Below are positions 5,663 through 25,689 of a DNA stretch of 41,957 nt, piece by piece. The position numbers and the translations under genes were made by a program. The number at the start of each line of letters is the position of its first letter. Positions within the stretch are counted from its first letter, which is position 1. Origin of the DNA: a virus; the IMG/VR virus record IMGVR_UViG_3300018432_000023, positions 1 through 41,957 of that record, one strand, 5' to 3'. The notes under the pieces were generated by a model. The model was not told where the DNA came from and ran no database searches. It saw only the letters and a list, made by a program, of their open reading frames with translations.

Positions 5663-5890
5663 GTGATCAGCGTAGCCCAACAGCACATGGAAGCCGAGTA
5701 CTACGCCAAGAGAGCCGAGGCTCCGCCTTGGATCATCGAAGCGTGTGCGGAGCATCTCGCCGATCTCCTCCGCTACCATGATCACGGGCACGGGGAGATA
5801 ACCCTGCGCCCGCTCTGGGCGCGTAAAGGAGCACAACATGGCACGACCCAAGAAGACCGCGCTCACGCCCGAGAAAAAGGCGCAGCGTAA
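5663..5890 (+). CDS. Hypothetical protein, 75 aa, GTG start
   Basis: I chose GTG 5663 because AAGGGGAGG lies at the right distance; a longer form from 5636 would run through the palindrome. The protein starts MISVAQQHMEAEYYAKRAE and is helical with a His-rich middle (RYHDHGHGE). It overlaps the next gene by 53 bases. Function unknown. Confidence 0.6.
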   Translation: MISVAQQHMEAEYYAKRAEAPPWIIEACAEHLADLLRYHDHGHGEITLRPLWARKGAQHGTTQEDRAHAREKGAA

Positions 5891-6574: not shown

Positions 6575-7561
6575 ATGGAACACGATATCTATGATCGCGT
6601 GCGCGTAACGTCAAATAACAAACCATCACCCAAGCCAACGGCATTCATCCCGACGAGGCACACGCCAGTGCCTGTGCTCGGACCCGATGAAGACTATCGC
6701 GACCTGCCGGGCGTCAGAAGGATGTCGATCCCTGAATGGGCCGGGATCCCTGACAATCCGATCCAGCGTGATACTCAGAAGCGCCTGCTCAGGGCGACGC
6801 ACCTGACCCCGTTCAAGCCGGTCCATCGCAGCGTCGTCATGGCTGTGCTGTCCGATGGCAGCATTTACAAAGTCGACGGTCACACGCGGCTGGCCCTGTG
6901 GCTGGACCCGACGTTCCCCAACGCGCCGGATTACGTCGAGGTCAAGACCTATCTCTGCCGAGACATCGAAACGCTCTGCGCTTTGCATAAGTGCCACGAC
7001 AACATCAAGGCAGCCGACAACGCCAACGATAAGATGTTCGGCGCCATGCGGCTCAACAGGATCGAGTTCAACTCGATGTTCATGAAGAGCCTCAAATATC
7101 ACTCGGGGCTGGTCGAGTTGGACGAGATCACCTTCGGCCACCAGAATACGCCGCTGGAAGAAGTCGTGCGCCGCTACAAGGGCGCGCTGCTTTTGCTCGA
7201 CACCATCACACCGACGCACAAGAAGTTCCCGACCGGCATCCTCATGGCGGCGCTCGGTAGCCTGCGTGTCGACGGCGAACGTGCGCTCGTCTTCTGGAAG
7301 AAATATCAGATCAGGGACGGCACGATCACCCGCGGTCGCATGGATGCGGTGCAGATGCTGCTCGAATACAACGACAAGGAATCGAGCAGCAAGATCAAAA
7401 GCAATTACGGTGTGACCTATCGCAAGGCGCTCTCGTTCTACCTTAGCTGGCGAGCGGGCACGACCTATTCGACCAAGAGCAAGAACACGGCACCCAAGGC
7501 GGACGGGACGCTGAAGGGATATCTCAAGTCCGGCATCGTGCAGGACGAGGCCCAGTGCTGA
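6575..7561 (+). CDS. ParB/sulfiredoxin-fold-like protein, about 328 aa
   Basis: I start at ATG 6575 behind GAGAGCTACGAAA rather than the TTG 15 bases earlier. Residues about 85-110 read VVMAVLSDGSIYKVDGHTRL. This is the strand-turn and (D)GHTR motif of the ParB/Srx-like fold, in which the GHxR residues bind nucleotide or phosphate. The remainder is helical and not recognised. Such proteins in phages act in DNA binding, nicking or partitioning; which applies is unknown. The stop overlaps the GTG of the resolvase gene. Confidence 0.65.
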   Translation: MEHDIYDRVRVTSNNKPSPKPTAFIPTRHTPVPVLGPDEDYRDLPGVRRMSIPEWAGIPDNPIQRDTQKRLLRATHLTPFKPVHRSVVMAVLSDGSIYKVDGHTRLALWLDPTFPNAPDYVEVKTYLCRDIETLCALHKCHDNIKAADNANDKMFGAMRLNRIEFNSMFMKSLKYHSGLVELDEITFGHQNTPLEEVVRRYKGALLLLDTITPTHKKFPTGILMAALGSLRVDGERALVFWKKYQIRDGTITRGRMDAVQMLLEYNDKESSSKIKSNYGVTYRKALSFYLSWRAGTTYSTKSKNTAPKADGTLKGYLKSGIVQDEAQC

Positions 7562-12448: not shown

Positions 12449-12455
12449 CGAGTGA
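12354..12455 (+). CDS. Micro membrane protein, 33 aa, nested in methylase 3' end
   Basis: ATG 12354 follows GGAGAAATTCA. The product (MIIPEWVFLGGWLLPALSMT and a short tail) is one transmembrane helix. It lies in a different frame inside the last 95 bases of the methylase gene and ends in a GTGA overlap with the next gene, which supports it as coding. Confidence 0.6.
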   Translation: MIIPEWVFLGGWLLPALSMTAVVIGGILMVTDE

Positions 12456-13210
12456 GCATCGTGTTCTATCCCGGTCTGCACCAGCCTGCAGACGCTCGCC
12501 ACTTCCCGCGCGCCTGCATCAGCATCAACCGGCTGCGCGGCCGGAAGAAGCGCGTCGACTGCTACGACCTGCTCATCGACAGCGGTGCCTTCACCGAACT
12601 GTCCACGCATGGCCACTACAGGCACGATGTGCGCGAGTATGCGTCCGAGCTCGACCGGTTGTGCAGCGAGGGGGTTATCCGCGCGTCCGCTGCCGTAGCG
12701 CAGGACTACATGTGCGAGCCGTTCATCCTTGAGAAGACAGGCCTCACCGTCGACGAGCACCAAAAGCGCACCGTCGACCGCTACACGTCTCTGGTCGCCT
12801 ACCATCACGGGTATGTCCCCATTATGCCCGTTCTTCAGGGCTACTCACCCCTCGACTATGTCCGGCATCTTGAGTTCTATGACGGCTTGCTGACCGAGGG
12901 AATGTGGACTGGCGTCGGCTCTGTCTGTAAACGGAATGGATCACCGGTCGACATCGTGAACGTCCTGTCCGCTATCCGTGCAGCTCGCCCCGATCTGAAG
13001 CTCCACGGCTTCGGCCTGAAGAAGACCGCGCTCATGAATCCGAGCGTGAGGGCGATGCTCCACTCGGCGGACAGCATGGCGTGGTCGTATCACGCGCGCA
13101 TCAACGGGCGCAGCGGCAACGACTGGCGTGAGGCGAAGGCGTTCACCGACCAAGTGCAGAACGTAACGGCCGCCGCCGAGACGCAGTGGCAATCAACCTT
13201 CGATTTCTAG
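12452..13210 (+). CDS. DpdA/tRNA-guanine-transglycosylase-like DNA modification protein
   Basis: GTG 12452 overlaps the micro-gene stop. Residues 38-48 read YDLLIDSGAFT, matching the nucleophile strand DSG(G/A)F of the TGT superfamily (Asp43). Barrel-like strands follow: AAVAQDYMCEP, VPIMPVLQGY, TGVGSVCKRNG and KLHGFGLKK, in the TGT order. The zinc site of tRNA enzymes is not apparent. Phage DpdA relatives exchange guanine in DNA for 7-deazaguanines. No preQ0 synthesis genes (queC, queD, queE, folE) are in this window, so precursor would come from the host or from genes outside. Confidence 0.7.
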   Translation: MSIVFYPGLHQPADARHFPRACISINRLRGRKKRVDCYDLLIDSGAFTELSTHGHYRHDVREYASELDRLCSEGVIRASAAVAQDYMCEPFILEKTGLTVDEHQKRTVDRYTSLVAYHHGYVPIMPVLQGYSPLDYVRHLEFYDGLLTEGMWTGVGSVCKRNGSPVDIVNVLSAIRAARPDLKLHGFGLKKTALMNPSVRAMLHSADSMAWSYHARINGRSGNDWREAKAFTDQVQNVTAAAETQWQSTFDF

Positions 13211-17050: not shown

Positions 17051-17215
17051 CTAGATGCGCTCGATGATGATGCGGTGAATGTTCTCGGCATGGAGGCTGT
17101 GCAGGTAGTGCAGCAGGTCCGCCATGTTGTCGTATTCGACCTCCTTGTATTCACGGAAGCCGTTGAAATCGTCGTCTTGGGGATAGATCAGGATCAGGCG
17201 GAATCGCATGGGCAT
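17051..17215 (-). CDS. Small hypothetical protein, 54 aa
   Basis: ATG 17215 follows GGAGAGCGCAGC. The protein starts MPMRFRLILIYPQDDDFNGF and is a compact alternation of strand, acidic loop and helix (ADLLHYLHSLHAENIHRIII). The ribosome site and protein-like composition support it. Confidence 0.7.
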   Translation of the reverse strand: MPMRFRLILIYPQDDDFNGFREYKEVEYDNMADLLHYLHSLHAENIHRIIIERI

Positions 17216-17245
17216 GCTGCGCTCTCCATTACAGCGGGGTGGTGA

Positions 17246-17827
17246 TCAGACGCTCCAGTGAAGCGGCTCGTTCATCTCGATGGAACGCTTCAGCAACTCG
17301 ATGAAGCGGTCCAGTTTGGTGCGAAACATCTTGCGCCAGTCCTCTACAGAGCCCCCCTCCGTGTCGAACTTCCATGGCTTCTCGTCGTAGAGCGCGCCGT
17401 CGACGCCCTCCTTCTTGCCCTTGCGCTTCTTCTCCACCCATGCAGCGAAGGTTTCATCGAACGTCTCGCGCTCCGTCTCCATGAAGGCGAGTAGCTCCTT
17501 CGCATGCTCGATGGGCAGGTTGCGCTCCTCGTCGAGCATCTTGTCGGCGATCTCCCACCATGAGATGCCGAGCACCCAGAACAGCGACGTGTCGTTGTAG
17601 CTGTCGCGGAAATAGCCCGGCGACTCCGTCAGGATTTCATACGCCTCGCCGACATACTGCTGCAGCTTGTCGACCTGTTTCGACAGCCTCGGGTCGCGCA
17701 TGACCTTGTCGCGCCCGCCGAGTTTGGTGATCAGGTGATCGCGGTTCAGCACCATCTGGTCGAACAGCGACCTGTGCTCGCGCTCATGTCTCTCGTTCAC
17801 GCTGGGAAGATAGATATCGGCACCCAT
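17246..17827 (-). CDS. Hypothetical protein, 193 aa, helical
   Basis: I choose ATG 17827 with TTGGAGAGCAAAACC before it over the ATG five codons upstream. The product starts MGADIYLPSVNERHEREHRS and is mostly charged helices, with an aromatic middle (SLFWVLGISWWEIADKML). The MGADIYL start recurs in phage proteins of unknown function. Confidence 0.75.
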   Translation of the reverse strand: MGADIYLPSVNERHEREHRSLFDQMVLNRDHLITKLGGRDKVMRDPRLSKQVDKLQQYVGEAYEILTESPGYFRDSYNDTSLFWVLGISWWEIADKMLDEERNLPIEHAKELLAFMETERETFDETFAAWVEKKRKGKKEGVDGALYDEKPWKFDTEGGSVEDWRKMFRTKLDRFIELLKRSIEMNEPLHWSV

Positions 17828-17862
17828 GGTTTTGCTCTCCAAGTCAGGGGTTGAGGGGACGC

Positions 17863-17886
17863 CGCTACAGCGCCCCCATAGAGGGG
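17863..17886 (-). repeat. Intercistronic hairpin pair with CGCTGTAGCG
   Basis: Just after the stop of 17887-18183, CCCC/GGGG closes a TCTAT loop (minus sense) and the adjoining CGCTGTAGCG is self-complementary. It is the first member, in map order, of the TGTAG element family. Confidence 0.5.
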
Positions 17887-18183
17887 TTACACGCGGACGA
17901 AGCGCTTACCGTTCCAGCGGAAGGTTCTGCCGCCCATCTTCAGCGACACGAGGTTGTCGAGCGAGATCATCCGATAAGCGTTCTTCTGGATGTCCCACAC
18001 CGTGAGCAGAGCCTTGCTCAGCGGATCGTAATTCATGCCTCGGCCGGTGATGCCCTTCCGGACACCCCTACGGCACACCATCGTGCGGAACTCGCCGTTC
18101 GTGCGCTTGATGAATTCCACGGTGAAGATGCGGCCGTTGCGAGCGGCGTCGACCATGTTCTGGCCAGTGATGAATTCTTGCAT
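17887..18183 (-). CDS. DUF2693-like small phage protein, 98 aa
   Basis: ATG 18183 follows TTGGAGAGCATC. The beta-rich order is FTVEFIKRTNGEFRTMVCRR, then GVRKGITGRGMNYDP, then LLTVWDIQKNAYRMISLDNL. It matches a widespread small phage family that I know as DUF2693, whose role is not established. Confidence 0.7.
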   Translation of the reverse strand: MQEFITGQNMVDAARNGRIFTVEFIKRTNGEFRTMVCRRGVRKGITGRGMNYDPLSKALLTVWDIQKNAYRMISLDNLVSLKMGGRTFRWNGKRFVRV

Positions 18184-18217
18184 GATGCTCTCCAATGATG
18201 CGCTTAACCGCACCCTG

Positions 18218-18246
18218 ATGGTGGCCACCACTACAGCGGCCACCAT
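18218..18246 (-). repeat. Intercistronic hairpin, 9-bp stem, TGTAG in loop
   Basis: ATGGTGGCC (18218-18226) pairs with GGCCACCAT (18238-18246). In the RNA (minus) sense the loop is GCTGTAGTGGT. It lies between a stop codon and the next ribosome site. Confidence 0.65.
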
Positions 18247-18256
18247 GGGGACGAGG

Positions 18257-18682
18257 TTAGCTGACGGCGACGAGACGAGGGCCAGTGTTGCGCCCCTTGA
18301 GGGCGACGAGCGACATCTCGGTAAGCAGCAACTCGCGACCGTCGTCTACACTCCGCACGCGATAGGGGAACTTGCTACGGCGAGGCGCAAAGCCGACGAG
18401 GAGGTGCGTCCGTCCCTTGTGGATGATCTTCGCACCGTAGTGCTCAGCCTTCAGGCCGAACATGGGTGCATACAGCCCGAACTCATGGCGCTCGTGCGCT
18501 TCCTTCGCGGCCGGGTCCGCGACCTTGAACCGGAATTTTAACGTGGCCTGACCGTTGTCGAGGCTCCCGCCTGCGGCCGACACAGTCAGTCCGTAAGCCT
18601 TCGCAAGCTCCTGCAAGGCCACTACAGCGGCGTCCTGCACGGCGCGGGTGTTCTTCTTGTCGAAGCTGGTGATGGTCGTCAT
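18257..18682 (-). CDS. Hypothetical protein, 141 aa
   Basis: I take ATG 18682 behind ATGGAGAGCACA. It starts MTTITSFDKKNTRAVQDAAV. An N-terminal helix is followed by several strands (FRFKVADPA, KAEHYGAKIIHKGRTHLLVG) and a basic patch. It resembles small phage proteins of unknown role. Confidence 0.75.
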   Translation of the reverse strand: MTTITSFDKKNTRAVQDAAVVALQELAKAYGLTVSAAGGSLDNGQATLKFRFKVADPAAKEAHERHEFGLYAPMFGLKAEHYGAKIIHKGRTHLLVGFAPRRSKFPYRVRSVDDGRELLLTEMSLVALKGRNTGPRLVAVS

Positions 18683-18715
18683 TGTGCTCTCCATGGTGGC
18701 TCAAGCGCACCGTGA

Positions 18716-18737
18716 GGAGCCCCTACAACGGGGCTCC
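18716..18737 (-). repeat. Intercistronic hairpin, 8-bp stem, TGTA in loop
   Basis: GGAGCCCC pairs perfectly with GGGGCTCC. The loop in the minus-sense RNA is GTTGTA. It lies between the stop of 18750-19094 and the ribosome site of the next gene, and no T-run follows. Confidence 0.65.
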
Positions 18738-18749
18738 CTGGCGCTACGC

Positions 18750-19094
18750 TCAGACCTTCTTGTCGACGAAGTGATGCACCTTCCGGCGCGGCATCAGGCT
18801 CGTATAGAGGCCAGTCACCCGCTCGAACATGTCGCGCAGCGTGTCGCAGTAGATGTCGTCGTGCGTGTCGACGAGGGCGAGGCCCGCATAGAACTCGACC
18901 CGATACACGTCCGCAGGGGTGAGCGTGATGCGCACCTTGCTGATCTTGCGATGCGTCAGGTCCGATGGGAGATCGAACTGCACGAAGTCATCGCCTCCCC
19001 TGAAATGCGTCGCCCCGGTCAGCATTCTGAAATTGTAGCCACCGAGTTGCTCGAAGATGGTCCGCGCCACTGGGAGGTTGCGAATGTCGCTCAT
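18750..19094 (-). CDS. Hypothetical protein, 114 aa
   Basis: ATG 19094 has ATGGAGAGCAGACAC before it. It begins MSDIRNLPVARTIFEQLGGY and is alpha/beta with a strand-rich middle (KVRITLTPADVYRVEFYAGL) and a basic C-terminus. No family is recognised. Confidence 0.7.
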   Translation of the reverse strand: MSDIRNLPVARTIFEQLGGYNFRMLTGATHFRGGDDFVQFDLPSDLTHRKISKVRITLTPADVYRVEFYAGLALVDTHDDIYCDTLRDMFERVTGLYTSLMPRRKVHHFVDKKV

Positions 19095-19108
19095 GTGTCT
19101 GCTCTCCA

Positions 19109-19810
19109 TCAGCCGAAAATGGCCTCGTCCATGATCTGGGTCAGGTTCTGGTTCTCGTCCGCGCCGCAGCCGCGCTGCATGAGGATGGCCTGCAGCGTCG
19201 CTACAACGGCCAGGAGGCGGTCGCCTTCCTTCGTGCCCGCTGCCCTCGTCGCCTTGCCAGCAACGGCGTGGATGGCCTCCGCAATGGCCACAGCGCAGGA
19301 GGGGGCGTCGGCCGACAACCCTACACGGGCGACCGGGTCGAGCGGGGCGAGCGGGACCTCAACGTCATCCCACAGCCAAATCTCAAGGCTGTTCGTCCAC
19401 TCGTTTAGCTCAGGGAAATGCCGATCCATGCGCACCATGATGCGCTCGTCGGTGATCTCCTCGACCGTGCCCGTCTCGCCTGCGTTGCAGAGGACAGTCG
19501 GGAAATTGTCGACGAAGTCGGTCGTGATGACGCGCTGACCGACCGTGAAGGGAAGCGCCTTGCGCACGATCTGCGTTGCCCAGCCACCCGCCAACGACAC
19601 CACACCCTCTTCCCTCACAGGGAGGTCGCGCAGGCTCGCAATCGTATCAGAATCGCAGCCGTCCAACTCGAAATAGGCCACGATCTTGTCGCGCACCTGA
19701 GGCAGGACGCACACGTTGTCGAAACCGTTCCACGTTGTGCCGTAGCTGAAGCCGTCGAATTCAGGGGAGCCGTCGAAGGTAAAGCGGCAGGGGGTGAGAT
19801 TGAAGGTCAT
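19109..19810 (-). CDS. Hypothetical protein, 233 aa
   Basis: I choose ATG 19810 behind ATGGAGAATTCCC. The middle (residues about 80-140) has the spacing of a small beta-barrel (VGQRVITTDFVDN, GETGTVEEITDERIMVRMD), like KOW/SH3-type domains that bind RNA or protein. The C-terminal 60 residues are helical. Assignment beyond an SH3-like barrel is not possible. Confidence 0.75.
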   Translation of the reverse strand: MTFNLTPCRFTFDGSPEFDGFSYGTTWNGFDNVCVLPQVRDKIVAYFELDGCDSDTIASLRDLPVREEGVVSLAGGWATQIVRKALPFTVGQRVITTDFVDNFPTVLCNAGETGTVEEITDERIMVRMDRHFPELNEWTNSLEIWLWDDVEVPLAPLDPVARVGLSADAPSCAVAIAEAIHAVAGKATRAAGTKEGDRLLAVVATLQAILMQRGCGADENQNLTQIMDEAIFG

Positions 19811-19848
19811 TGGGAATTCTCCATTGCTCATAAGCGAGCCGGGTGACA

Positions 19849-19873
19849 GGAGCGACCCTGGACGAGTCGCTCC
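19849..19873 (-). other. Intercistronic hairpin, 8-bp stem
   Basis: GGAGCGAC and GTCGCTCC pair around a 9-base loop, between the stop of 19887-20225 and the next start. A shorter hairpin (GCTC/GAGC) follows nearer the ribosome site. The loop lacks TGTAG, so this is a related position but a different element. Confidence 0.55.
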
Positions 19874-19886
19874 CGTGTGTCAATGC

Positions 19887-20225
19887 TTAGTAAGTGCCGT
19901 TGTTCCCGTTCGACGACGAAGAGCTGCTAGTGCCGTTCGACGAGGACGAGTGCCCGCCGTCCGAGTTGCCCGACTCGTGAAGGTTCGGGGCATAGTTGCT
20001 CAGGCCCGTATAGGGGTCGCGGGCATCCCAGTGAGGATAGGCCACGTCGACCCGGCCATGGTCATGCACTGCAACCGTGCGCGCCACCACAGCCCTACCC
20101 AAGGGTGCCTTTTGCACGACGCGGCTGGACACCACCACACCGGACACCGCGGTCTGGTAGGACTGCGAATGGCCGCAAGCGGCAACAGTGGAAGCGAGAA
20201 GGGAAGCGAGAATGATATTGCGCAT
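19887..20225 (-). CDS. Phage lipoprotein, 112 aa
   Basis: ATG 20225 follows TTGGAGAGCACAC. A signal peptide (MRNIILASLLASTVAAC) ends in a lipobox with Cys17, so the protein should be lipidated and face the periplasm. The C-terminus is a low-complexity Ser/Asn/Gly tail. Roles open to such proteins include superinfection exclusion and lysis; nothing in the sequence decides. Confidence 0.75.
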   Translation of the reverse strand: MRNIILASLLASTVAACGHSQSYQTAVSGVVVSSRVVQKAPLGRAVVARTVAVHDHGRVDVAYPHWDARDPYTGLSNYAPNLHESGNSDGGHSSSSNGTSSSSSSNGNNGTY

Positions 20226-20263
20226 GTGTGCTCTCCAAGGTGGTCAGTCAGGTTGCCACCATA

Positions 20264-20285
20264 GGGCCCGCCGCTACACGGGCCC
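20264..20285 (-). repeat. Intercistronic hairpin, 7-bp stem, TGTAG in loop
   Basis: GGGCCCG pairs with CGGGCCC. The minus-sense loop is TGTAGCGG. It lies between the stop of the 25-residue membrane gene and the ribosome site of the lipoprotein gene. Confidence 0.65.
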
Positions 20286-20297
20286 CGTGCTGTCGAC

Positions 20298-20375
20298 CTA
20301 TCGCCGCCGTCCAAGCGGCAGGATTGTGCAAGCTATGACGAGCGCGACGAGCGCCCAGCCGAACAGGATTGCCAC
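20298..20375 (-). CDS. Micro membrane protein, 25 aa, GTG start
   Basis: GTG 20375 overlaps the upstream stop (TAGTG). The product (MAILFGWALVALVIACTILP and a basic end) is one transmembrane helix followed by Arg residues. Stop-start overlap and the clean helix support it; no direct expression signal is visible beyond GGGGCGG upstream. Confidence 0.55.
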   Translation of the reverse strand: MAILFGWALVALVIACTILPLGRRR

Positions 20376-20683
20376 TACACCGCCCCTACAGGGGCCAGCG
20401 CGTCGCGCTCCGCCTTCGTCAGCTTCACGCCTGCGATCTGCTTTAGCTCCGCCTTGATCCGCTTTGCCGTCGCGCCGCGCCAGGATGTGGCATTGCTGAG
20501 GAAATAGAGGATCACGGATTTACCCGAGTCGTGATGATAACCGTCCACAACCTGATTCATCTCTCCGAGCGCGCGCAGATAGGGGACCGCGCCGAAGTAG
20601 ACGTTGTGCCAGTCGCGTCGGATCTCGGCCGCGATCACACACAGCGGACGATGCCCAAATGGATTCTCGGTTCTCTCGATCAT
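20375..20683 (-). CDS. Hypothetical protein, 102 aa
   Basis: I take ATG 20683 behind TTGGAGAGCACAACA. It begins MIERTENPFGHRPLCVIAAE and is helical. The segment PYLRALGEMNQVVDGYHHDS resembles small phage proteins of unknown function. Its stop lies in a GGTGTAG context. Confidence 0.75.
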   Translation of the reverse strand: MIERTENPFGHRPLCVIAAEIRRDWHNVYFGAVPYLRALGEMNQVVDGYHHDSGKSVILYFLSNATSWRGATAKRIKAELKQIAGVKLTKAERDALAPVGAV

Positions 20684-20701
20684 TGTTGTGCTCTCCAAGA
20701 T

Positions 20702-20715
20702 GCCCCCACAGGGGC
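20702..20715 (-). repeat. Short intercistronic hairpin GCCCC/GGGGC
   Basis: A 5-bp stem with loop TGTG in the minus sense, directly before the ribosome site of 20375-20683. It is a variant of the TGTA-loop element. Confidence 0.5.
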
Positions 20716-20718
20716 GGG

Positions 20719-20976
20719 TTAGTAGTGATGCCGCGACCCGACGTAGTTAAAATCTTCCATCGGGTCGTTCTCCTCCTCCTCGACCTCGCCAGTCTGCTCG
20801 ACCGAGTCGATGGTGTATTCGTCGTCCATCACTCGCCAGCGGCGCGGGCTCTCGTCTTTGGCAATTTCGATTGCCAACCATTCCGCGTCGTCTGCGTTCT
20901 CGGCCTCGACGTCCTCGACCGTGATCGTCTCGCAAACGACTCGCGTCACAGTCACAGAATAGAATGCTTTCGCCAT
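20719..20976 (-). CDS. Acidic hypothetical protein, 85 aa
   Basis: ATG 20976 follows GGGGAGGGTGTAGCGAC. A beta-rich N-terminus (AFYSVTVTRVVCETITVEDV), a helix and a very acidic C-terminus (EVEEEENDPMEDF) are seen. The acidity would suit a DNA mimic, but this is speculation. Confidence 0.7.
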   Translation of the reverse strand: MAKAFYSVTVTRVVCETITVEDVEAENADDAEWLAIEIAKDESPRRWRVMDDEYTIDSVEQTGEVEEEENDPMEDFNYVGSRHHY

Positions 20977-20992
20977 GTCGCTACACCCTCCC

Positions 20993-21298
20993 CTAGCGCG
21001 CCACTATACGGGCGCGGCACGGCACCAGATAAAGCTTGCGGATGCTCTGGAACGGCGCGCCATATACGGCACCGCCGCCGCTGGACGTCCGCTTCTGCAA
21101 TTCGATATGGCACGGCACCCAGCCGGACGAACGCGACACGATGAATCGCCGCTTGTCGCCATACTTGTCGACCACCTCGACCCGCCAGCCTTCCAGCCCG
21201 ATAAGCTGAGGCGTCAAACCGGCATCGCTGCGCAGTCGGTCGCGTTCGGCCGATGAAAGCGAATTCCAGCGCTGTTGCGTCATACCTTGAAGGCTCAT
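20993..21298 (-). CDS. Hypothetical protein, 101 aa
   Basis: ATG 21298 follows TAGGAGAGCGGGACA. An N-terminal helix (LSSAERDRLRSDAGLTPQL) precedes strands (GWRVEVVDKYGDKRRFIVSR). A hairpin CGCGCC/GGCGCG overlaps its last codons. No family is recognised. Confidence 0.7.
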   Translation of the reverse strand: MSLQGMTQQRWNSLSSAERDRLRSDAGLTPQLIGLEGWRVEVVDKYGDKRRFIVSRSSGWVPCHIELQKRTSSGGGAVYGAPFQSIRKLYLVPCRARIVAR

Positions 21299-21328
21299 TG
21301 TCCCGCTCTCCTATGCTGCCGCTACACC

Positions 21329-21342
21329 GCCCCTACAGGGGC
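21329..21342 (-). repeat. TGTA-loop hairpin overlapping a stop codon
   Basis: GCCCC/GGGGC with loop TGTA. The TAG stop of 21333-21584 lies inside it. The next 10 bases read GGTGTAGCGGC, a second copy of the core, before the TAGGAGAGCGGG ribosome site. Confidence 0.6.
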
Positions 21343-21584
21343 ACGATTGTATTCGCGAGGCGCACCCCTACAGGCTCCTGCCAAACGCCCTCCAGCCTCG
21401 TATGATGGCCGATAAACTGGTCAGCCTCGCGCAGGGTCAAATCGCCGAGCGTTTCCCATTTCACCGAAAACACATCATCACCGATGCGCACGACACGCCG
21501 CACCGAATGACGCCCGTGGCCATGCCGCACAACGGCATAAACCTCAAACGGCTCTGGCACGTTTCCATCCACGATGAATCTCAT
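21333..21584 (-). CDS. Hypothetical protein, 83 aa
   Basis: ATG 21584 follows TAGGAGAGCGGGACA. The beta-rich segment EVYAVVRHGHGRHSVRRVVR and the helix LREADQFIGHHTRLEGV are the main features. Function unknown. Confidence 0.7.
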   Translation of the reverse strand: MRFIVDGNVPEPFEVYAVVRHGHGRHSVRRVVRIGDDVFSVKWETLGDLTLREADQFIGHHTRLEGVWQEPVGVRLANTIVPL

Positions 21585-21603
21585 TGTCCCGCTCTCCTAT
21601 GTT

Positions 21604-21637
21604 GCCCCTATACGGGGCTGCGATGCCCCTACAGGGC
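21604..21637 (-). repeat. Two adjacent TGTAG-family hairpins
   Basis: GCCCC/GGGGC with a 5-base loop (21604-21618) and GCCC/GGGC with loop TGTAG in the minus sense (21625-21637). Both lie between the stop of 21639-21851 and the next ribosome site. Confidence 0.6.
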
Positions 21638-21638
21638 G

Positions 21639-21851
21639 TTACGCGATGGCGACGTGATGCCCCTCGAAAACTGCGACCATCTCAAAGAAGCTGGCCAATT
21701 CCGCGTCCGTCAGGGCCGGTTCATCGTCCAGCCCCTGAGGCTCCATCTCCCGCCGCGCGGCTGCGATGGCAGCGTCAACGCTATCGGCCGAGACATGGCA
21801 GACGGGAAAAAGATGATCGCAGTCAGCTAAAACGACGGTATAGGCTTTCAT
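21639..21851 (-). CDS. Hypothetical protein, 70 aa
   Basis: ATG 21851 follows TAGGAGAGCGGAATC. It begins MKAYTVVLADCDHLFPVCHV, then a helix (SVDAAIAAARREME) and an acidic middle. The strand-helix-strand layout recalls small DUF-type phage proteins. Function unknown. Confidence 0.7.
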   Translation of the reverse strand: MKAYTVVLADCDHLFPVCHVSADSVDAAIAAARREMEPQGLDDEPALTDAELASFFEMVAVFEGHHVAIA

Positions 21852-22143
21852 GATTCCGCTCTCCTATGTTGCCACTACACGGCACCCCTACACGGCACCC
21901 CTACACCGCCCCTACACCGGGGCAGCCAAAACCTGGCGCGCGCCTGAGCTGTTAGAGCCCACCGCGTTTTTTTCACTCAAAAAACACCGATTTTTGAGCC
22001 GGGGCGACACCCAAGGCGGCACGGAACGCGACGAAAGCGCGGCCGAAACCTGTCAGGATGCCCCTAGAACGCCCATAAATCGCTTCTGAGGGCGGTCCCG
22101 GCGGATTAGCTAGCTAACCGGCCGAAACCATTCTTTGCCTGTC
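21852..22143 (-). promoter_or_regulatory. 292-base gap: repeats, AT-rich hairpin, palindrome
   Basis: This gap divides the minus-strand cluster. From right to left it holds the palindrome TTAGCTAGCTAA (22106-22117), a low-GC hairpin CTCAAAAA/TTTTTGAG (21976-21998) next to a run of seven T, and the tandem CTACAC repeats. No gene is seen. It is a plausible site for termination of the upstream set and a new promoter for 21851 leftward. Confidence 0.5.
21869..21923 (-). repeat. Tandem CTACAC units ending in a hairpin
   Basis: The core CTACAC (GTGTAG in the minus sense) occurs four times in about 50 bases, two of them in GGCACCCCTACAC units. The last is closed as GCCCC TACACC GGGGC. It lies immediately upstream of the ribosome site of 21639-21851. 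Confidence 0.65.
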
Positions 22144-22359
22144 CTAGGCCGTTTCTGGCGATCCTAGGCCATAGTGCTCAGGCCGCGCCTTGCTAGCCTT
22201 GCCCCTGTTCACGACAACGGACCCGCGCCATCCTGCCAGCATCCGCGCAATCGCAACGGCCTCTTTTCGCTCGCGCACCACACCGATACGGCAGGGCATA
22301 TCCAAGCGGCGCACTTGCCAAAGCTTTCCGCTTTTCTCCACTAGGTAATGGCCTGACAT
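22144..22359 (-). CDS. Small hypothetical protein, 71 aa
   Basis: ATG 22359 follows AAAGGGGATTCAC. The protein (MSGHYLVEKSGKLWQVRRLD at the start) has strands, a helix (RKEAVAIARMLAGW) and a basic C-terminus. The layout resembles small DUF2188-like proteins, but I cannot confirm it. Confidence 0.65.
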   Translation of the reverse strand: MSGHYLVEKSGKLWQVRRLDMPCRIGVVRERKEAVAIARMLAGWRGSVVVNRGKASKARPEHYGLGSPETA

Positions 22360-22408
22360 GTGAATCCCCTTTCAGATTGCATTAGAAGGCCGTTAGTGGC
22401 GTTCCGTG

Positions 22409-22434
22409 CTGCCCCGCATGGATAGACGGGGCAG
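22409..22434 (-). other. Intercistronic hairpin, 8-bp stem
   Basis: CTGCCCCG pairs with CGGGGCAG around a 10-base loop in the 100-base gap between 22460-22651 and 22144-22359. No T-run is present. Confidence 0.6.
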
Positions 22435-22459
22435 AGTCGCAAAGCCGCTGGCGCGCGTC

Positions 22460-22651
22460 CTAGGGCCGTTTGTAGCGTATGGCCGAAAAGTGCTTTTCGA
22501 TTGCAAGGCGCGCGTTCCGTTCCGCGTCCGTTTCCGGCTCTGGCGAATTGTCCAGCGTCGCGACCCGCGCGGCCTCGCGTTTCAATCGTGCTTCCTTTCG
22601 CAGGGCATGCATGCGAGCGGAAAACATCCCGGCCGATAAGTGTCTGCCCAT
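22460..22651 (-). CDS. Small basic protein, 63 aa
   Basis: ATG 22651 lies three bases past the previous stop. The product (MGRHLSAGMFSARMHALRKE and on) is a charged helix with Lys/Arg-rich and Asp/Glu-rich segments. A TTG-start frame at 22658 is an alternative, but its composition is poorer. Confidence 0.6.
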   Translation of the reverse strand: MGRHLSAGMFSARMHALRKEARLKREAARVATLDNSPEPETDAERNARLAIEKHFSAIRYKRP

Positions 22652-22654
22652 TGG

Positions 22655-22945
22655 TCAAGCCCCCTCGGTTAGACGGACGTTGAACGCCTCGCCGTCCAGA
22701 TACGATTCAACGTTGGCAATCGTCTCGCGAATAGCGCGCAAGGCGTTGCTGTCGTCGAACGCGAGCCGCATCGGAAAGGAAGCGGATTCCGTCACTGTCG
22801 CAAGCCAAGCCTGCGCCGCGTCAATATCTAAGGCGTTGGCGCATCCGCTCATGTCGTCGTCGCGGTAGCATTCCCAACGTCCGTCTAAATCCGTCCAAAG
22901 CGTTTGCAACGACTCTTCGTCGTCAATTTCTAGAACGATGCCCAT
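22655..22945 (-). CDS. Acidic hypothetical protein, 96 aa
   Basis: ATG 22945 follows ATAGGAGAGTCAGGCT. It begins MGIVLEIDDEESLQTLWTDL and is acidic and helical, with a Cys pair near residues 32 and 41. Function unknown. Confidence 0.7.
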   Translation of the reverse strand: MGIVLEIDDEESLQTLWTDLDGRWECYRDDDMSGCANALDIDAAQAWLATVTESASFPMRLAFDDSNALRAIRETIANVESYLDGEAFNVRLTEGA

Positions 22946-22985
22946 AGCCTGACTCTCCTATCTTGAAGCATCGAGTCGCTTCCTT

Positions 22986-23014
22986 ATGGCGCGCCACACT
23001 GGACGGCGCGCCAT
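22986..23014 (-). other. Intercistronic hairpin, perfect 10-bp stem
   Basis: ATGGCGCGCC pairs with GGCGCGCCAT around ACACTGGAC, between the stop of 23035-23757 and the next ribosome site. It is among the longest perfect stems in the minus-strand cluster. Confidence 0.65.
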
Positions 23015-23034
23015 GGTGGAAACGTCCAGAGCGC

Positions 23035-23757
23035 TTAGGCTTTCATATGCGCGGCATCGGCCTTTTTCTTGCCAGTGCCGTGCGCAGGAAACCCAACGAT
23101 CACTTTACGGTCGCGCACTGCGCAAAGGCCGCAAGTGGCGCACGAAACATCGTCTTTGTAAGTGGCAGGGCAAACCACAACCTTTCGGCCTTTGGGCGTT
23201 GCAATATCGGCCTTGCCCTGGACGCTGGACGGCAGGACGACAACAACGGGTCCAGCGTTCAAATCGGCCAATGCGTCGGCGTGGGGCAGATTGTTTCCGC
23301 TTAGGTTGATCGTGAAACCGGCCGAATTAGCATCCGACACGACGGCGCGATTCTCGGCCGATTGTGTCACGTTGTGGTGCGTATAGGTAAAGCCGCGCTT
23401 TCCGTCGTTTGCGTCGACAAGCTGGCCAATCATGCCAGCGTCCAGCTTGCCCCCGTTGTGGGGCAAATCGCCAGCTTGATTGTGACGCCACAACGTATCG
23501 GCCGGGAGCGCCGCGACAGAGCCGCAAAGGCCGTTCCAATCCGTTGTGCGCATAGTGGCGCGGCCGTTTTTAAATTCCGCGTTCGGTCCAGCTTTCGACA
23601 TGCTGGACCAAAGGAAGGCAAGCGGGCCGGATTCCGCATAGCACCCATTTCCCGCAAAGGGGCAGGACGGTGCGCAGGTTTCTTTTGCCGTCGTCGACAC
23701 TGGCATTGGACCCGTCTTTACGTTGCTGGATTTGGGATTCCACAAAATAGCTGTCAC
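23035..23757 (-). CDS. Cysteine-motif phage protein, GP88/DUF7227-like, 240 aa
   Basis: GTG 23757 follows ATAGGAGAGTCTGCC. The protein has CAPSCPFAGNGCYAESG near residues 27-43 and CATCGLCAVRDRK near 205. With DTLWRHNQAGDLP and FTYTHHN segments it resembles the phage GP88/DUF7227-type proteins, which have such Cys clusters and are thought to bind metal. Its role is not known to me. Its leader carries the GANTC/GTTAAC block and the TGCGCACAATCGCGCC repeat. Confidence 0.75.
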   Translation of the reverse strand: MTAILWNPKSSNVKTGPMPVSTTAKETCAPSCPFAGNGCYAESGPLAFLWSSMSKAGPNAEFKNGRATMRTTDWNGLCGSVAALPADTLWRHNQAGDLPHNGGKLDAGMIGQLVDANDGKRGFTYTHHNVTQSAENRAVVSDANSAGFTINLSGNNLPHADALADLNAGPVVVVLPSSVQGKADIATPKGRKVVVCPATYKDDVSCATCGLCAVRDRKVIVGFPAHGTGKKKADAAHMKA

Positions 23758-23773
23758 GGCAGACTCTCCTATT

Positions 23774-23836
23774 TGCGCACAATCGCGCCGCGTTGGTCGT
23801 TTGGTTTTAAGGCTGATTCCCTAGCGAAACGTTAAT
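23774..23836 (-). promoter_or_regulatory. Leader 1: GANTC/TTAAC block plus TGCGCA repeat
   Basis: In the minus sense ATTAACGTTTCGCTAGGG is followed by AATC (giving GGGAATC, a GANTC site), then a TTAAAACC -10-like patch, then GGCGCGATTGTGCGCA and the ribosome site of 23035-23757. The stop codon of the upstream gene lies inside the block. The sequence is shared with the leaders at 24020 and 24660. Confidence 0.55.
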
Positions 23837-24003
23837 GGCGACTGCCAATAGGCAAGTTGCCCCTGCCAGTGTGAAAGCTTGCGTTCCCAGAAAGCCGCCT
23901 CGGCCGCATCTAGGTCGCGATGCGTCAGCTGATTAGCAGCGCGCGCAATGCCACGGTGCGCCCGTGCAATCGCCTTCAAGTGGAGAACGTCAAGCTTGGT
24001 CAT
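23821..24003 (-). CDS. Small helical protein, 60 aa
   Basis: ATG 24003 follows a leader with GGGGGCC as the only ribosome-site-like stretch. The product is a Trp-, His- and Arg-rich helix (MTKLDVLHLKAIARAHRGIA at the start). Function unknown; the gene's position behind a conserved leader supports it. Confidence 0.6.
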   Translation of the reverse strand: MTKLDVLHLKAIARAHRGIARAANQLTHRDLDAAEAAFWERKLSHWQGQLAYWQSPLTFR

Positions 24004-24019: not shown

Positions 24020-24080
24020 TGCGCACCAATCGCGCCCGACACAAACCGTTATAGCAGCGATTCCCTAACAAAACGTTAAC
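24020..24080 (-). promoter_or_regulatory. Leader 2: GANTC/TTAAC block plus TGCGCA repeat
   Basis: In the minus sense GTTAACGTTTTGTTAGGG is followed by AATCGCTG, a good -10-like CTATAACG, and then GGCGCGATTGGTGCGCA before gene 23821-24003. This copy lies wholly in an intergenic gap (24004-24125), so it is not constrained by coding. That gap also holds a terminator-like hairpin (AGGGCGGG/CCTGCCCT) further upstream. Confidence 0.6.
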
Positions 24081-24125
24081 GCCACTTTCCTTAGGGCAGG
24101 TCGAAACCCGCCCTGCGGAAAAAGG

Positions 24126-24290: not shown

Positions 24291-24420
24291 GGGATTCGTT
24301 CTCCTTTTGCGCACAATCGCGCCCGGTTTCTGATTCCGTATGGCGAGTCGTTTCGCCAGTCAAGGCTTGAATTTCCGCAATCATTGCCGCGACTGCGGAA
24401 GCTAATTCACTGTTACTCAT
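24277..24420 (-). CDS. Small hypothetical protein, 47 aa
   Basis: ATG 24420 overlaps the preceding stop (TAATG), so translation is probably coupled. An N-terminal helix (MSNSELASAVAAMIAEIQAL) is followed by a polar Glu/Thr/Asp tail. Function unknown. Confidence 0.6.
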   Translation of the reverse strand: MSNSELASAVAAMIAEIQALTGETTRHTESETGRDCAQKENESHDND

Positions 24421-24654: not shown

Positions 24655-24659
24655 CCAGC

Positions 24660-24681
24660 GATTCCTTGCGAAACGGTTAAC
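24660..24681 (-). promoter_or_regulatory. Leader 3: GANTC/TTAAC block
   Basis: In the minus sense GTTAACCGTTTCGCAAGG is followed by AATCGCTG, matching leaders 1 and 2. It overlaps the stop codon of the transglycosylase gene and lies just upstream of the start-codon hairpin. A candidate promoter for 24420-24620 and the genes after it. Confidence 0.55.
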
Positions 24682-25294
24682 GCGCGCCAGGTTTCGTCAT
24701 TTCCGCTTCTAACTTTGCGATATGGCCCCCGAACGCCTTCGGCGGATTCTTGCCTAGGAACGATTCAATCGGATGGCCCGTAATGGCCAGCACATAAGCG
24801 CGCGTCTCGGCCGGAATGCTGGACGTCTTTGCCCCCTTCGTCGCCAGCCACTTGGACAAGTTGCCCTGCCCCCAATTATAGGCCGCAAGTGCAAGGCCTA
24901 GATTGCCAAAGCGTGACTCTAGCTGACCAAGGTATTTCGCTGCGCCACGAGTCGAAGATTCCGCGCTTGTCCTGTCGACAGCATACGCAACGGCCGTTCC
25001 CGGCATAAACTGGAAAAGGCCGCATGCTCCCGCCTTAGAACAGACGTCCAGCTTAAACCCGCTTTCCTGCCGTGCCACGGCAGCTAGAACGGCCGGGCGC
25101 ATCGTTCCGGCATTATCTGCCAGGATGCAACGCAAGGCCGCTGGCACCATGCCAGAGCGCTCGCAATAGGTGCGCCGTGCTTCCGCCCTTGCATAGGCTT
25201 CCGCATTGGTCACGACGTGATTTGCAGTGATTACAGTGCATCCGCCCATAAGCAGCAGATTCAGGCCGATAGTAAGCTTTGTTGTGGTGCGCAT
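24677..25294 (-). CDS. Lytic murein transglycosylase (SLT), probable lipoprotein
   Basis: ATG 25294 follows AGGGGGCAACA. A signal peptide ends in LLMGGC (Cys19), a loose lipobox. Residues 65-180 match the SLT goose-lysozyme-like fold: catalytic Glu77 in AAVARQESGF, then AGACGLFQFMPGTA, LAAYNWGQGN and a YVLAI segment. Such enzymes cleave the glycan between MurNAc and GlcNAc with 1,6-anhydro product. Because it is predicted to be exported and lipidated, lysis or cell-wall remodelling fits better than a virion tail role. It opens the minus-strand operon. Confidence 0.85.
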   Translation of the reverse strand: MRTTTKLTIGLNLLLMGGCTVITANHVVTNAEAYARAEARRTYCERSGMVPAALRCILADNAGTMRPAVLAAVARQESGFKLDVCSKAGACGLFQFMPGTAVAYAVDRTSAESSTRGAAKYLGQLESRFGNLGLALAAYNWGQGNLSKWLATKGAKTSSIPAETRAYVLAITGHPIESFLGKNPPKAFGGHIAKLEAEMTKPGAR

Positions 25295-25689
25295 TGTTGC
25301 CCCCTGTTGTGTGTCGTTTGACAGGGGCGAATCTGCGCCATGGGTTTGAACAATTCCTTACCTGTTGCCCCTTGCCTATTGACAGGGTTAGCACTGCCCT
25401 AAGGCAAACCACACAATGCGCAGCACATAGCGCAAAGCCTTATGCTGTAAGGCTTCTAGCAGCTCTTCACCATTCATTAGGATATGAGGCAAGGCCTCGA
25501 GTGCATGCTATGCAATCAAGCGCAAAGCCTTATGCCACAAGGCTTTCGTCGTCGTCGAGGGCGGCCGGGTGCCCCCGTCGGGTTAAGCGAATCGCCCCTG
25601 GGGGCCAGGACCGCGCGGGGGGTCAGCATTCGCGCGCAAAGACGAAAAATTCCGGCTATGGTATTCGGGTGATTCGTGGAGAGCGCGAA
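25295..25689 (+). promoter_or_regulatory. Divergent control region with paired hairpin repeats
   Basis: The gap lies between the diverging transglycosylase gene and the plus-strand right arm. TTGACAGGG occurs twice on the plus strand (about 25317 and 25379), so at least one may be a -35 box; no good -10 box follows. AGCGCAAAGCCTTATGC occurs at 25429 and 25519, each beginning a hairpin. The stretch 25560-25640 is very GC-rich with runs of G and C. Confidence 0.55.
25429..25546. repeat. Two hairpin repeats exactly 90 bases apart
   Basis: A 17-base direct repeat (AGCGCAAAGCCTTATGC) starts each unit. The first folds as AAGCCTTA/TAAGGCTT (25435-25455) and the second as AAAGCCTT/AAGGCTTT (25524-25546). 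The loops differ while the stems are kept. They could be operators, an origin element or attachment-type sites. Confidence 0.65.

Follow-up and report, generated by a model that had tools for sequence, protein, structure and literature searches.

Why does one phage carry, in gap after gap of a single operon, RNA hairpins with differing stems and a nearly constant loop? This question is raised by the virus record IMGVR_UViG_3300018432_000023 of IMG/VR, a stretch of 41,957 bases with a G+C content of 61%, which is called the window in the following. An earlier note on this DNA had proposed that hairpins with a TGTAG-type loop lie between consecutive minus-strand genes and form a conserved RNA element.

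Hairpins of the leftward operon

The large terminase of the phage is lambda-like; this protein and the portal are only about 26–31% identical to those of known phages. Also encoded are a DnaB-like helicase, methyltransferases and a queuine tRNA-ribosyltransferase-like gene (12452–13210, plus strand), which adjoins the methyltransferase genes and may hint at modified DNA. Between about 25.3 and 16.1 kb the genes are on the minus strand, the majority being small and unknown. Within this block lies the small-gene operon with hairpins in its gaps (17246–21851, minus strand); the hairpin-bearing region was taken as approximately 17.2–23.0 kb. Most gene starts of the operon are preceded by GGAGAGC, which is a stereotyped ribosome site on both strands of the window (16 of 23 copies are located 2–9 nt before an ATG).

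The hairpins are described here in the sense of the transcript, i.e., all are on the minus strand. At the distal end, GGGGGCGC-UGUAGCG-GCGUCCCC (17855–17877) begins 9 nt past the stop of gene 17887–18186, AUGGUGGCCGC-UGUAGUG-GUGGCCACCAU (18218–18246) 10 nt past the stop of gene 18257–18682, and GGAGCCCC-GUUGUA-GGGGCUCC (18715–18738) 11 nt past the stop of gene 18750–19094. A hairpin with the variant loop UCCAGGG (19846–19876) follows the stop of gene 19887–20225 by 10 nt, and GGGCCCG-UGUAGCGG-CGGGCCC (20263–20286) is found 11 nt past the stop of a 25-aa ORF. This ORF (20298–20375, minus strand; VAILFGWALVALVIACTILPLGRRR) is membrane-like, and its GTG start overlaps the TAG stop of gene 20375–20683.

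Further upstream the copies are mostly shorter. GCCCC-UGUA-GGGGC (20382–20395) overlaps the end of gene 20375–20683, and a second, unpaired UGUAG copy (20379–20375) provides the TAG stop of that gene. GCCCC-UGUG-GGGGC is located at 20702–20715. A hairpin with the loop UAUAGUG (20997–21021) is embedded in the 3' end of gene 20993–21298; GCCCC-UGUA-GGGGC (21329–21342) has a UGUAG loop which includes the stop codon of gene 21333–21584, and is followed by an unpaired copy at 21326. Two short hairpins occupy 21604–21637, namely GCCC-UGUAG-GGGC (21625–21637) and GCCCC-GUAUA-GGGGC (21604–21618). At the promoter-proximal end, GCCCC-GGUGUA-GGGGC (21905–21926) is followed by tandem UGUAGNGG copies to about 21870; in all, about five extra UGUAGNGG copies (e.g., at 21905, 21892, 21326 and 20379) are tandem and mostly unpaired. 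A near-identical block, GGCARCATAGGAGAGCGG, is common to three leaders. Finally, AUGGCGCGCCG-UCCAGUG-UGGCGCGCCAU (22986–23014), again with a variant loop, starts 20 nt past the stop of gene 23035–23757.

All four stems quoted in the earlier note were found on the transcribed strand, and the family, which had been thought to end at 21,923, extends to 23,014. The loop had been given as TGTA or TGTAG in most copies; this describes the UGUAG copies, but the hairpins at 19846–19876 and 22986–23014, which had not been listed, carry UCCAG. A location between a stop codon and the next ribosome site had been claimed as well, from which several copies depart: at 21337 and 20379 the UGUAG copy contains the TAG with which its own gene ends, the copy at 20390 is within the end of gene 20375–20683, and that at 21008 is inside the 3' end of a gene. 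The absence of T-runs was correctly noted: no U-run stands behind the hairpins and no terminator-like site was detected on the minus strand, so that an identification as intrinsic terminators is not supported.

Repeats of other kinds are found upstream of the operon. On the minus strand, three gaps of the same gene block (23772–23794, 24306–24328 and approximately 24020–24036) contain a short hairpin of another sequence, GCGCGATTGTGCGC (GCGCGATTGGTGCGC in one of them), which in two of the three stands just before GGAGA-type ribosome sites. A 28-nt direct repeat of the CAGCGATTCCCTAACAAAACGTTAACGC type between minus-strand genes (23811–23838, 24055–24082, 24656–24683) might represent an early promoter or an operator present in several copies. 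Two 27-nt direct repeats (25429–25455 and 25519–25545), one with a clear dyad AAGCCTTA/TAAGGCTT, lie between the leftward and the rightward genes and are possibly an operator pair.

Abundance, stem pairing and strand

On the minus strand of the window there are 17 copies of TRTAGNGGC, 13 of them within 17.8–22 kb, and on the plus strand there is one. When the operon gaps were compared with 300 dinucleotide-preserving shuffles, ten hairpins with a pair score of at least 15 were observed (2.5 in shuffles) and six with a score of at least 18 (0.65 in shuffles); neither number was reached in any shuffle. Alignment of the copies left U-N-N-A-G-N-G as the loop letters common to the family (UGUAG, UAUAG or UCCAG, followed by NG). 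Eight strong hairpins on the minus strand are tipped with UNNAGNG, compared with one on the plus strand and with zero to two for permuted control motifs. Since this motif was defined after inspection of the copies, location is the more independent evidence: all eight are in operon gaps or at gene ends. The family is therefore confirmed as real.

Pairing of the stems was examined by an arm swap, in which the 5' flank of each site was kept and the 3' flank was taken from another site. For 24 TRTRGNGG sites in the region the score with their own partners was 326, versus 271 ± 15 after swapping, a value reached by one of 5,000 swaps. The 12 hairpin-type sites scored 215 versus 153 ± 12 (none of 20,000 swaps); as these 12 were picked for pairing, whereas the 24 were chosen regardless of it, the larger set is the fair test. 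The copies which share a single register (17869, 18235 and 23003) are paired in 93.9% of cells, with two-sided changes at six of 11 pairs, and a shift of the register abolishes pairing. Among the copies of 17.8–20.3 kb the stems have diverged almost fully and the loop letters remain. The notion of covarying stems around a constant loop is thus borne out by arm swaps and two-sided changes, with the exception of the GCCCC/GGGGC copies, which add no covariation because their inner stem is identical. Two registers are found among the hairpins, UNNAGNG being either free in the loop or having its GNGG paired in the stem; for this reason RNAalifold, when given 12 copies aligned plainly with MAFFT, returned no consensus pair.

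G-U pairs of the minus strand lengthen the stems and A-C pairs, which correspond to G-U on the opposite strand, do not. The difference between the two scores was 77 at threshold 18, the maximum in 400 shuffles being 59, and 61 at threshold 15, a value reached by seven of 400 shuffles. Such a strand asymmetry would not be shown by DNA palindromes, which are therefore not supported, and the element is taken as RNA of the operon transcript. In this respect the idea of a conserved RNA element gained support, since asymmetry, covariation and swaps all point to an element which acts as RNA, in the orientation of the transcript; its conservation is known within one genome only, because no homologous copies were found in other phages.

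Placement at stop codons, and comparison with other phages

No close relative of the phage was found in IMG/VR, GTDB genomes or INPHARED. For the terminase and for genes 18257 and 18750, no relatives could be confirmed among viral contigs, nor were any found for the terminase in genomes. Distant phages which share single genes, i.e., relatives of gene 17887 or of DUF7227, are devoid of the loop family. Motif scans with loop plus Shine-Dalgarno or tandem patterns gave few matches, which we read as chance, because each contained one copy of the pattern and no series of such hairpins. A blastn search with the leader 21852–21930 returned one match of 20 bases (E 0.7). Rfam gave no match at the gathering score for the window and none at E ≤ 2 for 17200–23100. 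An IRE-like element was considered and rejected: a CAGUGN loop resembles only the copy at 22986, a bulged C was not seen, and Rfam shows no match. No description of a UGUA tetraloop was found in the open-licence literature.

The placement of the hairpins is regular. The six strongest start 9, 10, 11, 10, 11 and 20 nt past the upstream stop, an agreement with p of about 0.001 under uniform placement, and strong hairpins end 14–27 nt ahead of the next Shine-Dalgarno sequence; in the promoter-proximal part, the positions of the short GCCCC copies are less regular. Judging from ribosome footprints, a ribosome which terminates at the stop codon would have its front edge approximately 9–11 nt past it. 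Predicted accessibility of the Shine-Dalgarno sequences did not change consistently in the presence of the hairpins, neither towards sequestration nor towards exposure, and the hairpins are therefore not predicted to affect initiation directly.

Hairpins close to stop codons are also present elsewhere. Other phage loci (relatives of DUF7227 and of gene 17887, plus phages AnnaSerena and Quhwah) provided 344 gaps between genes of the same strand. Of the 72 strong hairpins in these gaps which lack a T tail, 29 begin 4–11 nt past the stop, versus about 0.8 expected from shuffled gaps; this count is indicative, as gene calling was mechanical and some loci are mutually related. The loops of these hairpins vary, the commonest tetraloop being UACG. 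In T4, of which the first 50 kb served as a control, six of nine CUUCGG hairpins start between -4 and +6 nt from the stop codon. A more distant phage contig (L011) contains nine strong intergenic hairpins (e.g., 5772–5843 and 6640–6705), versus 0.8 in shuffled gaps; their loops are unrelated and several lack U-runs. Since stop-proximal hairpins are seen both in the other loci and in T4, this placement is a phage design which is known or at least common, and the special feature of the present family is the constant UNNAGNG loop.

The closest analogue, in our reading, is the series of intercistronic CUUCGG hairpins of T4 (Tuerk et al. 1988, as cited in PMC8948821). Both phages have many intergenic copies with a constant loop and variable, complementary stems, mostly just past stop codons, and a U-run is not needed. 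They differ in the loop (UNNAGNG here, UUCG in T4) and in the spacing (9–11 nt here, -4 to +6 in T4), and two registers as well as tandem copies are found here. By this analogy the operon hairpins would work like those of T4 without being members of that group, because the defining loop CUUCGG is absent; we read them as a variant of that known kind.

Proposed role and alternatives

Our preferred explanation, to which we assign a probability of slightly less than one half, is that the hairpins are cis-acting RNA elements which separate cistrons and stabilise or mark the mRNA, with a loop that is read by one trans-acting factor. Situated just ahead of the terminating ribosome, they would stay folded on translated mRNA, and the folded hairpins could keep cistrons apart in that they shield the ends of mRNA segments which have been processed or are being degraded. 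Protection of mRNA ends has reportedly been proposed for the CUUCGG and gene 32 leader hairpins of T4. The constant loop would probably be recognised in every gap by one and the same factor, which might be an RNA-binding protein or a nuclease, of phage or host. The operon itself encodes a WYL_2-like product with an Sm-like fold (gene 17887–18186); it is only a candidate for this factor, because other phages carrying relatives of the protein lack the hairpin family. Against the preferred explanation, two loop registers are awkward for a single binding mode, and several copies are unpaired tandem repeats. A more specific version appears possible, though doubtful, namely that a phage or host RNA-binding protein or RNase reads UNNAGNG at the leading edge of the terminating ribosome in every gap, so that paralogous hairpins would make up a post-transcriptional regulon.

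A rather unlikely alternative dispenses with a reader of the loop: the hairpins would be purely structural separators, which protect mRNA ends or insulate genes by their stability, and the loop would be constant owing to duplication within the genome. The near-identical block in three leaders and the tandem copies at 21870–21920 are in agreement with duplication, and stop-proximal hairpins whose loops are unrelated are common in other phages. However, the stems in 17.8–20.3 kb have diverged almost wholly while the loop was kept, which drift after duplication would not bring about, and UNNAGNG is, to our knowledge, not among the hyperstable loops.

It is quite unlikely that the hairpins act as attenuators, at which RNA polymerase would pause or be released, possibly aided by Rho or a different factor, so that expression would drop step by step down the operon. 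A position just past stop codons is typical of terminators, and some factor-dependent terminators are devoid of U-runs. On the other hand, the lack of a U-run and of any terminator-like site on the minus strand speaks against this mechanism, a dozen terminators per operon would leave little distal transcript, and the loop would have no explanation.

Oriented repeats acting at the DNA level, such as stoperators, promoters or protein sites similar to SAS/ESAS, are considered very unlikely. In their favour, TRTAGNGGC is asymmetric, is oriented 17:1, lies mainly between genes and resembles in these properties the stoperators of cluster A phages (PMC4351075), which are likewise asymmetric, oriented with transcription and present in many copies; the repeats of the present phage, however, sit in covarying RNA hairpins. 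The SAS/ESAS of cluster K mycobacteriophages (PMC3203893), for which the authors argue against RNA pairing, are likewise repeated ahead of non-structural genes, where a stereotyped ribosome site is combined with an inverted repeat upstream; in ESAS the arms are conserved and the spacer varies, whereas here the pattern is reversed, with variable arms, a constant centre and support for pairing, and an identity with SAS/ESAS is thus not supported. The sequence conserved at the ribosome site comprises 13 bp in SAS; the stereotyped GGAGAGC comprises 7 nt. In Microbacterium phage AnnaSerena (PMC7302621), the ESAS with a GTAGAG centre was rejected as a homologue, as it looked promoter-like and not hairpin-like on direct inspection. 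The 17-bp inverted repeats of cluster O (PMC4351075) and the 18-bp inverted repeats of cluster EG (PMC7302621) are repeated dyads, too, and partly or mostly intergenic, but their arms are invariant or nearly so, as in DNA sites, whereas the arms described here covary. The constant centre between variable complementary arms and the asymmetry of G-U and A-C pairs argue for RNA, and no sigma-70-like site was detected on the minus strand of the region.

Chance formation of hairpins in G+C-rich gaps is strongly disfavoured by shuffles and arm swaps, although the window has 61% G+C and the short GCCCC/GGGGC copies, taken by themselves, would be no surprise.

If the hairpins are cistron-separating elements as preferred here, they would represent a second, independent case of the pattern known from T4, with a constant loop, variable stems and a position next to stop codons. 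As UNNAGNG is not known as a hyperstable loop, which is the usual explanation, the question why phages keep one loop would become testable. The occurrence of intercistronic hairpins without U-runs 4–11 nt past stop codons in phages suggests a general and little-described layer of mRNA design.
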